Shown here one piece after another: positions 3,448 through 15,741 of a stretch of 24,536 bases of DNA (its first letter is position 1; each line of letters opens with the position of its first letter). The position numbers were made by a program, and so were the translations under genes. The notes beneath the pieces were generated by a model, which saw only the letters and a list, made by a program, of their open reading frames with translations, searched no databases and had not been told where the DNA came from. The stretch is from a virus, in the IMG/VR virus record IMGVR_UViG_3300002514_000236, positions 1 to 24,536 of that record. One strand, 5' to 3'.

Positions 3448-6411
3448 TTAATTTTTACTTATTATTTGGTAATCCACGCCGTCAAATCTAATACTGAAAC
3501 TGTCATATAAGTTAGATGTTGCTTTATTTGCTGCTCCGTCTATTCTAGGAGTTCCTGATGCTGTTGTTATATTTAAAGTATTTGAAGCCTCTATTAATTT
3601 AATGTCAAATGTCTGTCCTATCTCTGTAGTATCTGGCAAATATAATTCTATGTTCCCCCCTGATGTATCTACTAAATACGTCAATATTTCTTCTGTTGCT
3701 GTGTATGGGCTTGTAGATACTTCTATTAGACTACCAGAGCCAAGTATAGAATTATTAACAACTGTTGTATTGCTTTGACTTATAATTAAACCGTTTGTAT
3801 TTATAAGATTAACATTTGAAACTCCAGACTTAATTACATTATCATCTCCTTGTATAGTTACGTTTAAAGCGTTGCTATAAACTTTATTTGAATTTCCTTT
3901 AATATCTACATTCGTGGCGCTTCTACTTATATAATTATTATCTCCACTTACAGTATGATTTCTATTGCCTTGACTGTTTCCATTATGTAGCCTCGCACTT
4001 GCTTGGCTAAATGTAGGACTTGCTTCTGCGCCTATCTTTATATCTACCGCCCCATTAATTAAAGTATCTGTAGGCACAAATATTTCAGCATCTTTAATCT
4101 TTAAAAATTCGCACATAGTTAATTCAGAAGGATTATAGTTTTCTATTTTGTTTAATCTGAAATAAGCATTGTTAAATCTAAATTGTTTTCTGAAACTAAT
4201 ATTTTTAATATCTGAGGGCGTTAACCTAAAATAACCTCTTACTATTTTTGAATTTACATCTGTAATTTCTTCTATAAACTTTTTATGATATTTATTGAAA
4301 AGATTGTTATTACTTATCGTAATAGAATTATTAAACACATCAGCCCAGTAAATTTCCCTTGTAAGCCCAAAACCTATATCTTCAGTTGGTGTATAAGGGT
4401 CGTTATACATTCCAGCATAAGGATAAGTAGTTCGTAAATCAAATACACCAGAATTATCTGTATAATCCCAGCATTGTTGGGTATTTTTTAGTCCGCTCCA
4501 TTGTAAAATTCTTATATTACTTTCTGTTCTTTGAACTCCATTTTTATCATCATATTTTATTATAGTAGGAATAACTCTATCATACCACGCTTGTCCTACG
4601 CTTGGAGTTGGTGAAAATATTATTTCAGTTTTAAATTCATTCTTTATAAAATCATTTGTTATGCCATATTTTCTTTGTCCATAAATTTCGCTCCAAGTTT
4701 CTTCATAGAGTTTGTTATAATAATCTTTGTCTTGCTTATAGGTATATAAATAATCTTTACTATCTAATGCTCCCATAGGTAAGTAAGTAACTTCTTTTGA
4801 ATTATCTAACTTTTGCGTCCAGTCTACTATATCATTTGTAAAAAAGTCATCTCTAGGCTCAATTAATAAATTCTTATCATTTTGCCCATCTGATTGAACG
4901 TACAAATTAAACATCTTTACTAAAGACATAAAATAATCTCTTTGCTTTACTTTCAAAGGTATGCTACTTGACATATCAATAGTGTTACCGTCAGTATATC
5001 CACTATTTACTACGCTGTTTTTAAAATAACCATCTAATATGTTTAATTTATAGCCATTTACTGGACCATTTCTAAGAACTCCAGCAGAAACATACCAACA
5101 AGGAGAACCATAACTATATCCAAAAGCCGTTTCTTTTCTTACTGCGTATTTTATTTCTAGCTTAATTTGCTCATTAGCACTTAAATATATATTACTTACA
5201 TTAATATTATATTTATTACAAATAGAATTATTATTATTTCCTAACGATGTTATATCTGTTGTATTAGAACCCCCTGTAATTGCCATATATATATAATCCT
5301 GTGACGGTGTTGTAGGTGCTGCTAAAGTTGTTACTGTAGCAGAAGGTGCTACTGAAGCATTGTATTTAGATACACCAAACGAAACTTGGTCTAAAGTATT
5401 TATAAATACACCTCCACTTGTATATTTATTTATTTCAATATATCCTTGTATATAACCTAATAATGTGTAACTTGCTGCTGGGGTGCTTGGTGCTGTAAAT
5501 TCGCCCTGTAGTTGTAGCATAGCTTCAATATTATAAAAGCCGTTTTGATTCGGTGTATATATGCCTGTTACTATACTATGTATATTGCTAGTATCATATA
5601 CTTCTACTATATTATTTATAATATCATCATCATACGAAGTATTATCATTATATTCTAAAGCGTATAATTCTGGCACTCCTGTCGCTTGAATTTCAGGAGT
5701 ATTTGCATTAAAAATTCTATTATTAATTACTGTTTCTGTAAGTGCAAAATTCTTAGAAGAAAATGGTATTATTAAATTCTCAAAATATTGACTATCAAAA
5801 AAGTCGCTATCGTAAGTATAACCAGCATCAGCAAATATTTCATCTATGTATTTCTTTGCTGTTATTGCTGGAAATAAATCTTCTACATCCCACTGCTCAC
5901 TAAAACCTTGTCCTCCGTAGTTAATATCATAGTTAATCATAGGGTAAACATAATCAGTAGTAAGTGGATAATTCCACGTAGCTACCTGAGTTGCTTTATC
6001 GTATGTATGATTTAATGAACTCATATCTAAATCTGTTAGTTCTTTATTTCCTAACTCATTTATAAAATTACCTACCCTACCAATTATAGTAACTTCATAG
6101 CTTATTAATTCGTCTATTATTTTAATTTCTTTTAACTGTAAATAACCGTCTATAATAGTTTCTCCGTTAACTAAATATAAAACATCAGTTTTTAAATTAG
6201 GGTTAAATGTTTGCAAGTCTATATTTACCTCAAAAATATGCTCAAATAATTTATTTATTTTTTTACTTCCAGGCAACGAAATACTTTTTGAGTAGTCGCT
6301 TTTTCTTTTATCAGGGTTTTTAATATCTGAAATATTAAATGTTAAATTAGGCTCTAAACTTCCTAATAATTCCACCCTTTCGTTTCCTATGTATAATTCT
6401 TCTTTAACCAC
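3448..6411 (-). CDS. Large tail tip / baseplate protein with C-terminal adhesin-like repeats
   Basis: This 987-residue protein starts with a domain common in Bacteroidota phage tail genes (MVKEELYIGNERVELLG..., with a KRKSDYSKSISLPGSKKIN segment), rich in beta-strand patterns. From about residue 819 to 889 it has short Asn/Ser/Val repeats such as SGDNNYISRSATNVDIKGNS and IQGDDNVIKSG, typical of a beta-helix or head-type adhesin. The last 100 residues (ILTYLVDTSGGNIELYLPD ... RIDGA ... FDGVDYQII) resemble C-terminal domains of phage fibres. I infer a protein that joins the tail tip and contributes to receptor binding. The start overlaps the previous gene by 8 bp. No enzymatic site was recognised, so it may be purely structural. 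Confidence 0.7.
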   Translation of the reverse strand: MVKEELYIGNERVELLGSLEPNLTFNISDIKNPDKRKSDYSKSISLPGSKKINKLFEHIFEVNIDLQTFNPNLKTDVLYLVNGETIIDGYLQLKEIKIIDELISYEVTIIGRVGNFINELGNKELTDLDMSSLNHTYDKATQVATWNYPLTTDYVYPMINYDINYGGQGFSEQWDVEDLFPAITAKKYIDEIFADAGYTYDSDFFDSQYFENLIIPFSSKNFALTETVINNRIFNANTPEIQATGVPELYALEYNDNTSYDDDIINNIVEVYDTSNIHSIVTGIYTPNQNGFYNIEAMLQLQGEFTAPSTPAASYTLLGYIQGYIEINKYTSGGVFINTLDQVSFGVSKYNASVAPSATVTTLAAPTTPSQDYIYMAITGGSNTTDITSLGNNNNSICNKYNINVSNIYLSANEQIKLEIKYAVRKETAFGYSYGSPCWYVSAGVLRNGPVNGYKLNILDGYFKNSVVNSGYTDGNTIDMSSSIPLKVKQRDYFMSLVKMFNLYVQSDGQNDKNLLIEPRDDFFTNDIVDWTQKLDNSKEVTYLPMGALDSKDYLYTYKQDKDYYNKLYEETWSEIYGQRKYGITNDFIKNEFKTEIIFSPTPSVGQAWYDRVIPTIIKYDDKNGVQRTESNIRILQWSGLKNTQQCWDYTDNSGVFDLRTTYPYAGMYNDPYTPTEDIGFGLTREIYWADVFNNSITISNNNLFNKYHKKFIEEITDVNSKIVRGYFRLTPSDIKNISFRKQFRFNNAYFRLNKIENYNPSELTMCEFLKIKDAEIFVPTDTLINGAVDIKIGAEASPTFSQASARLHNGNSQGNRNHTVSGDNNYISRSATNVDIKGNSNKVYSNALNVTIQGDDNVIKSGVSNVNLINTNGLIISQSNTTVVNNSILGSGSLIEVSTSPYTATEEILTYLVDTSGGNIELYLPDTTEIGQTFDIKLIEASNTLNITTASGTPRIDGAANKATSNLYDSFSIRFDGVDYQIISKN

Positions 6412-14352: not shown

Positions 14353-14976
14353 TTAAAGTAAGTTAGTATTTAAGTATCTTTTTTTTACAGTATTTAAACA
14401 ACTTTTATATTTTTCTTTATCATTAAGATTATAATTACTAACCCTCATCATTCTAATAGTAAGTATTTTATGTTTATCTTCAATACTAAAATCTGATTGC
14501 AAAACTTCTTCAATGCTTTTGCCAGTCATTTTTAAAATTTCCTCTTTATTAGTTTTATTAGTTTTATTAGTATTAATAGTTTTATTATAGTGACCTAAGT
14601 AAGGTACCTTGATGTCCCCTAGTAAGGTATCTAGTGAGGTATCTACTTTGTTACTTAGTGAGGTATCTAGTAAGGTTAAAAAGACTAAACTAACTATATT
14701 AGCATTATGATGATTTACTGACTTCTTTATTAGTTTAATAAAACCCCATTTAATTAATTCGTTAAATGCTTTAAAATAGGATTTATGACTACTTATACCA
14801 ATATACTGCATTGTCATATAAGTAGGTAGTCCGAACTTCTTTTGCCAACCTAAAATATTACATTGTTCTATTGCTCTAAAATAAATTGCTGTATGTATAG
14901 GCCTAACTTTATCAGGATTAGAAAGAGTAAATTCCCACCATTGTTTATTCATTTCAAAAATATTTACTTTATACAT
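14353..14976 (-). CDS. Replication initiator-like protein with internal origin iterons
   Basis: The 207-residue protein has a helix-turn-helix/winged-helix-like N-terminus (MYKVNIFEMNKQWWEF; FRAIEQCNILGWQKKFGLP; KAFNELIKWGFIKLI), of the kind found in phage replisome organisers. A linker of repeated residues follows (DTSLSNKVDTSLDTLLGD and NKTNKTNKEE), then a basic C-terminal region (RMMRVSNYNLNDKEKYK). The linker DNA holds 12-bp iterons at 14597-14679 and AT-rich 9-bp repeats at 14545-14589, like the origin inside lambda O. The protein would bind those repeats and load the helicase encoded next. Its stop lies 115 bp before the helicase start. DnaD-like homology is by pattern only. Confidence 0.65.
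   Translation of the reverse strand: MYKVNIFEMNKQWWEFTLSNPDKVRPIHTAIYFRAIEQCNILGWQKKFGLPTYMTMQYIGISSHKSYFKAFNELIKWGFIKLIKKSVNHHNANIVSLVFLTLLDTSLSNKVDTSLDTLLGDIKVPYLGHYNKTINTNKTNKTNKEEILKMTGKSIEEVLQSDFSIEDKHKILTIRMMRVSNYNLNDKEKYKSCLNTVKKRYLNTNLL
14545..14679. other. Candidate replication origin: iterons plus AT-rich unwinding repeat
   Basis: Five copies of a 12-bp element near the consensus TAGT(A/G)AGGTATC lie at 14597, 14620, 14632, 14656 and 14668, with spacings of 23, 12, 24 and 12 bp. Beside them TTTATTAGT repeats at 14545, 14554 and 14563, with two degenerate copies to 14589. Iterons next to an AT-rich tract inside an initiator gene is the lambdoid ori design. Amino-acid repeats (DTSLDTLL, NKTNK) are their coding side. 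Confidence 0.7.
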
Positions 14977-15172
14977 CTTCGACCTCCATTAACTTTATTT
15001 CATCTGCTAGAACTTCTTGAAGTTTTATAGCTGTTTCTTTGTCTAATTGTAAATGTCCATAATAACCGTCTTTATTATCTATACTGATAAATATTTTGTT
15101 TTTATTATTTAAAAATAATTGTAATTCTGCTTCAGAATCTACACAATCGTAAAAAATTAATTTATAATTCAT
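14969..15172 (-). CDS. Small hypothetical acidic protein upstream of the initiator
   Basis: The 67-residue protein MNYKLIFYDCVDSEAELQLF... has alternating strand-like segments (IFISIDNKDGYYGHLQLD) followed by a helix (KETAIKLQEVLADEIKLMEV). The YYGHLQLDKETAIKL part resembles small proteins I recall from Bacteroidota phage early regions, without known function. Its first codon lies 8 bp after the T-run that ends the candidate small RNA, so it may be expressed by readthrough of that terminator. Its end overlaps the initiator start by 8 bp, arguing for co-translation with the replication protein. Confidence 0.55.
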   Translation of the reverse strand: MNYKLIFYDCVDSEAELQLFLNNKNKIFISIDNKDGYYGHLQLDKETAIKLQEVLADEIKLMEVEDV

Positions 15173-15180
15173 AATTTATA

Positions 15181-15290
15181 AAAAAAGAAAAGCCCTCAAA
15201 CAAATTTGCAAACAGGAGCAAGTATCCTATAATTCGTTGTATTGGGCTAATATGTTAATCATTATCTTGCTTCTTTGATTTGTGTTTGCA
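15181..15290 (-). ncRNA. Candidate structured small RNA with possible pseudoknot and terminator
   Basis: A region of about 110 nt begins at the promoter (15292-15316). On the RNA strand TGCAAACA (15290-15283) pairs with TGTTTGCA (15214-15207), AGCAAG (15271-15266) with CTTGCT (15222-15217), and ATAAT with ATTAT inside. The apical loop holds AGCCC (15248-15244), which can pair with GGGCT (15195-15191) downstream, giving a pseudoknot, or with a T-run (TTTTCTTTTTT) that would make it a terminator. It may be a free RNA or a leader of the 67-residue gene. No known family was recognised. The only ORF in it is 11 codons long. Confidence 0.5.
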
Positions 15291-15291
15291 C

Positions 15292-15316
15292 TGCAAATAT
15301 AATACTTTTTTTTAAT
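15292..15316 (-). promoter_or_regulatory. Promoter for the candidate small RNA
   Basis: TATATTTG at 15301-15294 on the minus strand matches TAnnTTTG. An ATTAAAAAAAA tract starts exactly 15 nt upstream, as at the sigma-like gene promoter, and both are followed by CA. Predicted initiation is about 5-7 nt downstream, near 15288, at the first paired stem. No -33 TTTG is seen. Confidence 0.65.
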
Positions 15317-15382
15317 TAATAGCTTTTTTTCTTGTTTTAATTGTTTTAATTGTCTATTTTTGACATAACTTTTTAATTAATT

Positions 15383-15425
15383 AAGCCCTTTATATTGTTT
15401 TGCTGACATTAGAGGGCTTTTTTTT
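15383..15425. terminator. Hairpin after the 105-residue gene; terminator-like on the plus strand
   Basis: AAGCCCT (15383-15389) and AGGGCTT (15413-15419) form a 7-bp stem with a 23-nt loop. The plus strand continues with T residues (15418-15425), so as a rho-independent terminator it fits plus-strand transcripts best. For the minus-strand gene ending at 15424 the hairpin has no T-run, so it could be only a weak stop or a processing site. Confidence 0.4.
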
Positions 15426-15741
15426 ATGCGTGTTTAAAGTGTGAATTTAATACTTGTTTCTCTCCCCTCCATTCCGAACACATACCTAAAGAATTAATAC
15501 ACTCTTCTAAATCAATATTACCTCCTAAATTATTCTCTAAATAATCTTCATAAGAGTAATAATCATATTTTTCGCCTTCTACTATTTCTTGTATTGTAAA
15601 TGTAGGCTTACAATAAAATAACATAAATAAAGCGTAATTTATTAAATTCGATTTATTTTCTGTATTAGCTTCTATTAAATCGTTTATTTTTTTAGTAGTT
15701 CTAAATGATATTAATTTTATTTTTTTTTCTGTTGTTTTCAT
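15424..15741 (-). CDS. Hypothetical protein with possible ribbon-helix-helix N-terminus
   Basis: The 105-residue protein begins MKTTEKKIKLISFRTTKKINDLI, a basic strand-helix pattern followed by another helix (ENKSNLINYALFMLFYC), which fits a ribbon-helix-helix DNA-binding domain. The C-terminal half is acidic and aromatic (GEKYDYYSYEDYLENNLGG). The start has the A-rich leader shared by other early genes (AAAACAAAATGAAAAC). It follows the IbrA-like gene and a 54-residue ORF, and precedes the small RNA. It could repress early genes, but no direct evidence supports this. Confidence 0.5.
   Translation of the reverse strand: MKTTEKKIKLISFRTTKKINDLIEANTENKSNLINYALFMLFYCKPTFTIQEIVEGEKYDYYSYEDYLENNLGGNIDLEECINSLGMCSEWRGEKQVLNSHFKHA

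Follow-up and report, generated by a model that had tools for sequence, protein, structure and literature searches.

Putative kissing-hairpin 5′ leaders ahead of DNA-replication genes in viruses of Flavobacteria and related hosts

Viruses of Flavobacteria and related hosts carry a family of structured leaders ahead of DNA-replication genes, whose output these leaders probably control. The element considered here lies on the minus strand of a 24,536 nt stretch of viral DNA (positions 1 to 24,536 of IMG/VR record IMGVR_UViG_3300002514_000236; hereafter the window), where a sequence-only reading had noted a promoter, nested stems, pairing of a loop across a hairpin, and a T-run. All of these elements are present on that strand. 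As that reading had proposed, they predict a structured phage RNA, apparently undescribed, that has a promoter to itself, a hairpin-crossing loop pairing and a terminator-like end. We consider it somewhat better than an even bet that this RNA serves as 5′ untranslated leader for an early or replication operon, belonging to a kissing-hairpin family and likely attenuating transcription with its terminator hairpin in the kissing complex. At the level of sequence comparison the family has a promoter, two hairpins, loop-loop complementarity, a U-tract, a consistently placed AUG, and covariation of the RNA type. The predicted parts in the window are as follows.

15301-15294, minus strand: promoter −7 element TATATTTG, of the Bacteroidota TAHHTTTG type, assigned from sequence
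15290-15283 with 15214-15207, minus strand: 8 bp outer stem of the sequence-only reading, TGCAAACA with TGTTTGCA
15257..15280, minus strand: hairpin H1, stem AATCA/TGATT, with a 14-nt loop containing AGCAAG
15271-15266, minus strand: loop arm a, AGCAAG, pairing with the H2 loop (5-6 bp with CTTGC(T), 15222-15217)
15191..15248, minus strand: terminator-like hairpin H2, with AGCCC/GGGCT base, AACGAATT/AATTTGTT, ATAGGA/TCCTGT and the 7-nt loop TACTTGC
15248-15244 with 15195-15191, minus strand: GC-rich arms of the H2 base, AGCCC with GGGCT
15218..15224, minus strand: H2 loop a′, TACTTGC, complementary to the H1 loop
15180..15190, minus strand: U-tract TTTCTTTTTTT directly after H2, assigned from sequence
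14969..15172, minus strand: 67-aa ORF with its ATG at 15172, the first gene after the leader
14353..14976, minus strand: 207-aa ORF, the second gene of the operon
15741-15424, minus strand: 105-aa ORF on the other flank of the leader, opposite the 67-aa ORF

Promoter mapping in F. johnsoniae places the G of TTTG in the TAHHTTTG element at −5 (PMC6847099), and with this spacing the window transcript is predicted to start at 15289, close to the 15288 suggested earlier. The ~110 nt between promoter and U-tract contain no ORF of at least 40 aa, consistent with the earlier view that no credible protein lies inside. What that view omitted is the ATG at 15172, 8 nt past the U-tract and 18 nt past the H2 stem. 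The proposal of an independent small RNA gives way at this point: in the window, as in nearly every relative, a same-strand ORF starts just past the terminator stem, and because it does so 4-26 nt past that stem the element is better described as a 5′ leader than as a free-standing small RNA. A terminated RNA of ~100 nt may be produced as a by-product of the leader. The 67-aa ORF has no match in Pfam or PHROGs, and the last ~75 residues of the 207-aa ORF resemble the C-terminus of a DUF6291 protein encoded behind the same leader in another contig (L005). Behind the 105-aa ORF, at 15355-15425 on the plus strand, lies a probable bidirectional terminator: TATTTTTG and then a hairpin, AAGCCCT...AGGGCTTTTTTTT, whose 3′ arm is similar to the leader terminator arm of the other strand (17 nt, 88%).

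Evaluated alone, the window fold is only partly unusual. The stability of the entire 110 nt is ordinary (z −0.53) and H1 is weak by itself (−0.4 kcal/mol); the minimum-energy fold of the H2 segment is somewhat unusual (−15.6 kcal/mol, z −2.4, P 0.022), and its helix recurs in the fold of the whole leader. A 5′ hairpin loop complementary to the 7-nt loop of H2 arises in 1.2% of shuffles. The stems named by the sequence-only reading all exist, and H1, H2 and the loop-loop pairing prove to be family features, whereas the 8 bp outer stem that it had placed at the core is at chance level: at least 8 pairs form between these regions in 9.4% of shuffles (P 0.094), the stem is absent from the family, and TGTTTGCA (15207..15214) shares positions with the internal bulge of H2 and with the final 3 bases of d3 (TCCTGT). 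The two-hairpin fold, H1 plus H2 with the GCAAG/CTTGC loop contact, is thus better supported in the window than the outer stem. The strong evidence is comparative.

A DNA similarity search of the phage collection with the region itself gave no match. Two other phage contigs (L003/L005/L174 and L004) carry the same 120-nt cassette at 99-100% identity; it runs from just before the promoter to GAGGGCTTTT and has different genes on both flanks. In L005 it lies directly before a DUF6291 gene (PF19808, E 2e-19); the ORF that follows it in L004 has 69 aa and is homologous to the 67-aa ORF of the window (39% identical, E 2e-7). Proteins of 67-69 aa without a Pfam match are found behind the leader in the window (14969-15172), L004 (1285-1494) and L111 (5460-5663), the window and L111 proteins being weakly similar (E 0.015).

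Further loci were fetched via neighbouring PAPS-reductase, ParB-like and terminase genes, and were scanned for promoter, hairpin and terminator. Scans of ~2 Mb of related phage DNA yielded ~30 leaders that are unrelated in sequence and share one architecture. At a score of at least 50 there are 23 non-redundant matches in 1.95 Mb against 2 per shuffle replicate, and 15 of the 23 have TAnnTTTG within 45 nt upstream, where permuted motifs average 1.6. A promoter-anchored search that did not require the U-tract gave 29 non-redundant sites scoring at least 52, and none in shuffles. A simple terminator scan found nothing; the H2 loop is bigger than that of textbook terminators. These thresholds and scores are home-made, the E-values of the covariance models described below are rough, and many of the contigs are metagenomic. 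Members were partly found by structure and then described as sharing it, and the controls are accordingly shuffles, permuted promoters, swapped loops and a covariance model built without the loop helix.

The common plan is a TAHHTTTG promoter, H1 from +1, an AU-rich linker, H2 with a GC-rich base and U-tract, and an AUG 4-26 nt after H2. At the median, H1 begins 4 nt past TTTG (that is, at +1) and has a 6 bp stem and a ~10-nt loop; the AU-rich linker is 17 nt; H2 has an 11 bp base, a small internal loop and an inner stem bearing a 7-10-nt loop; and the loop-loop helix is 8 bp. The inner H2 stem, which was outside the search criteria, exceeds shuffled spacers (combined P 1e-5). The nine nucleotides after the H2 base contain a mean of 7.2 U, against 2.5 ahead of other start codons, and the tract is interrupted in a few members. 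Apart from the promoter and U-tract, the family has few conserved positions, and the conserved unpaired nucleotides of a ligand pocket, by which a metabolite riboswitch would be recognized, are not seen. By eye, the H2 internal loops fall into AGTA/GAA (L176, L171, L027 1640, L156), TGAA/GGAT (L014, L013, L015, L026, L182, L200) and TGAT/TGAT (L073, L153); the recurrence of these known non-canonical types (bulged-G/loop-E-like or tandem G-A) suggests a defined three-dimensional shape.

Compensating changes among relatives, which the sequence-only reading had put forward as the test of its structure, are abundant. A first covariance model, R1, was built from eight members and included only H1, the H2 base and the inner stem. 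It recovers members that were not used in training, with Cellulophaga phage phi10:1 (10239-10346, E 7e-6) at the top, followed in order by L153, L066, L176, Flavobacterium phage 11b, Croceibacter phage P2559S and FCL-2. The phi10:1 leader, with TATATTTA as its promoter, was missed by the first simple descriptor and found by the covariance model. Among 25 aligned matches 89.5% of cells pair, compared with 58.1% when shuffled and 36-51% when slid, all 21 of the 21 pairs change on both sides, and the covariation score is 0.63 versus 0.19 (0 of 500 shuffles). Since this 25-sequence alignment was fitted to the structure, pairing that lies outside the model, the loop-loop helix, counts most. Complementarity between the 5′ region and the H2 interior averages 19.1 within a leader's own sequence and 12.4 when partners are swapped (0 of 20000 permutations), and 6-11 contiguous loop-loop pairs are found in 24 of 24 credible matches. 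This is the sole conserved long-range pairing in the family. In the ungapped pair L176/L188 there is one compensatory change in the loop helix and another in the inner stem. G-U occupies 47 cells and A-C 7, and an excess of this size points to selection on RNA of this sense. The fold is well supported for the family, its effect on expression being inferred.

The window copy is best described as a divergent member. It has the TAHHTTTG-type promoter directly before the fold (TATATTTG), and a GC-rich base, U-tract and AUG at H2. Its loop-loop helix (GCAAG/CTTGC, 5-6 bp) is weaker than the 6-11 bp of the family, H1 begins 9 nt after +1 rather than at +1, and H2 is longer than in other members. R1 does not match it at E ≤5. 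A second model, R2, built from 25 members with the window excluded, returns 15301-15181 as the best match in the window (E 0.024), with the L004 copy next; the H1 and inner H2 stems are not aligned, and the match rests mostly on the promoter, H2 base and U-tract. It is the R2 rank together with the AUG position and shared gene order that would place the copy in the family.

Position relative to genes is equally characteristic. At 28 of 37 sites scoring at least 50 an ORF starts within 30 nt of the stem, compared with 12% for promoter-like sites in general, and some of the nine exceptions resemble false matches or contig ends. The genes behind the leaders are mostly replication genes or HNH endonucleases, and the products include DUF6291 proteins, CHC2 and VapE/PriCT primases, BT4734-like plus HTH replication proteins, ParB-like proteins, a ResIII helicase and NUMOD4/HNH endonucleases. 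Named phages with a member are Flavobacterium phages 11b and FCL-2, Croceibacter phage P2559S and Cellulophaga phage phi10:1. In five contigs (L005, L070, L045, L066, L043) the leader occupies the same position, just behind the PAPS-reductase gene. A single phage can have three leaders (L153, L027), and L112 has a second leader-like element (5125-5248) ahead of a 178-aa protein without a Pfam match. Genes of NUMOD4/HNH type with the same kind of leader are present in L027 (1743-2489), L156 (2934-3410), L151 (1570-2124) and L153 (-17846), as if mobile endonuclease genes bring or acquire it. The leader can also serve to correct gene starts, as in P2559S (L171, NC_018276), where the leader region is 33901-34000 and the annotated start of gp48 at 33955 falls inside it, the leader model placing the start at 34000.

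Host chromosomes carry matches in 3 of 299 Flavobacteriaceae and in 1 of 395 phylum-wide. Two of the matches were inspected: one from Flavobacteriaceae is clear (L213, a 1.9-kb contig), and L214 looks false. The leader thus belongs essentially to phages. In L207-L209 the prophage DUF6291 genes are without it, and in seven contigs (L179, L180, L184, L185, L190, L195, L196) a DUF6291 gene is preceded by a bare promoter, TATATTTG CAAAAACAATCA...ATG, with a leader of ~20 nt. The bare-promoter phages constitute a natural control group.

In the mechanism that we favour, host RNA polymerase would start at ~15289, and the nascent RNA would fold H1 and then H2, the H1 loop pairing with the H2 loop in an intramolecular kissing interaction. 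With its GC-rich base and U-tract, H2 would act as an intrinsic terminator directly ahead of the AUG; part of the transcripts would stop there, with an efficiency set by the loop-loop contact, and read-through would give the mRNA of the downstream gene. Termination, its tuning by the kissing contact and the resulting limit on replication-gene dose are all three things that we infer. No conserved antiterminator pairing is found in the family, and a classic two-state attenuator is not visible; this lack of an alternative helix, together with U-richness after the H2 base, would favour a constitutive kissing fold with partial termination. More tentatively, the leaders may form a new cis-regulatory RNA class of Bacteroidota phages in which kissing between a +1 hairpin and a terminator loop controls intrinsic termination, with a start-codon copy of the loop acting as a translational switch in some members; selection would then act on the complementarity of the loops alone and leave the sequence free to vary.

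The copies just mentioned are second occurrences of loop arm a; they lie past the U-tract, either on the start codon or immediately ahead of it, and are seen in L176 (409-523), L188 (2664-2778), L178 (377-502), L045 (6264-6382) and L201 (upstream of 4001), reading GGGCAG/GAGCAG, ACACAACCA, TAACGTCGAA and TGCAACATG. In L188 the copy has changed jointly with a and a′. Such a copy at the AUG is a possible start-codon switch. As a general rule of the family it was rejected, being found in 3 of 31 tested members (at least 6 identical nt) plus L188 and L201 by eye.

Translational control is the main rival to attenuation. The folded leader would gate ribosomes ahead of an AU-rich start, with a phage protein (e.g. 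SSB) bound and the U-tract serving as initiation region. The AUG 4-26 nt behind H2 suits such an operator, as do the tuning of F. johnsoniae initiation by structure near the start codon (PMC6847099), the T4/RB69 gene 32 pseudoknot with the unstructured start region that follows it (PMC535899), and the arm-a copies of L178, L045, L176/L188 and L201, which a′ could cover. However, these copies occur only in a minority, a conserved U-tract right after a GC-rich stem is a hallmark of terminators, and the downstream genes are unrelated, making a single autogenous repressor unlikely; we give this explanation a modest chance. The small RNA of ~105 nt that was first proposed, if it ended at the U-tract and its loops acted in trans, would account for the separate promoter, the terminator-like end and an upstream operon that finishes before the leader, but the element is nearly always directly before a start codon, its hypervariable loops are complementary to one another rather than shown to match other genes, and the same RNA stands ahead of different genes, so that a free-standing RNA seems unlikely. 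H1 at +1 and the compact kissing fold could also shield early mRNA from decay without any regulation, an idea we find quite improbable as it leaves the U-tract and H2 base beside the AUG unexplained. That the repeats act as DNA, for example as a replication origin or a protein-binding inverted repeat, fits their frequent proximity to replication genes, but is hardly credible given the 47 G-U against 7 A-C cells, the several copies per phage, some before HNH endonucleases, and the fixed orientation behind a promoter.

No Rfam 15 family reaches its gathering score in the window or 12 member loci, and the window minus strand has no match even at E ≤10, two sub-threshold chance matches being on the plus strand only. 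Searches of an open-access library turned up no paper on such leaders. Like transcription attenuators and other terminator-bearing 5′ leaders, these have a promoter, a structured leader, a terminator-like hairpin with U-tract and a gene, but here a +1 hairpin kisses the terminator loop, no conserved antiterminator helix is found and no leader peptide was noticed. ToxI-type type III toxin-antitoxin systems likewise combine promoter, pseudoknot-like RNA, terminator and gene on one transcript; positions 15150-15450 of the window lack direct repeats, and so tandem antitoxin units, and no ToxN/CptN/TenpN-like gene is downstream, the relatives carrying replication or HNH genes instead. The put RNAs of phage HK022 are also early leaders with two hairpins that act in cis on transcription, but they suppress downstream terminators, whereas these leaders themselves end terminator-like and have complementary loops. 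ColE1 RNA I/II kissing resembles the leaders in its 7-10-nt complementary loops, hypervariable sequence and conserved geometry, and differs in being between sense and antisense RNAs rather than within one leader. The T4/RB69 gene 32 operator shares a phage replication gene and a pseudoknot-type leader fold followed by an AU-rich start (PMC535899); it is a ~28-nt pseudoknot before one gene, in contrast to two hairpins and a U-tract before many unrelated genes. Each of these ingredients, the kissing loop, the terminator leader and the phage pseudoknot operator, is thus known by itself, and it is their combination as a widespread phage leader family that appears new.

Cis-regulatory RNA in Bacteroidota phages is little described, and leaders that keep their shape while varying in sequence escape both sequence search and Rfam models. 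Isolates with a leader exist (11b, FCL-2, P2559S, phi10:1), and their action can be put to a direct test. In several phage groups that are unrelated to one another, the leaders stand before the genes with which phage DNA replication begins. If kissing does control termination, this would be a new and easily tested way to set gene dose, and the leader would be usable as a genetic part in Flavobacteria.
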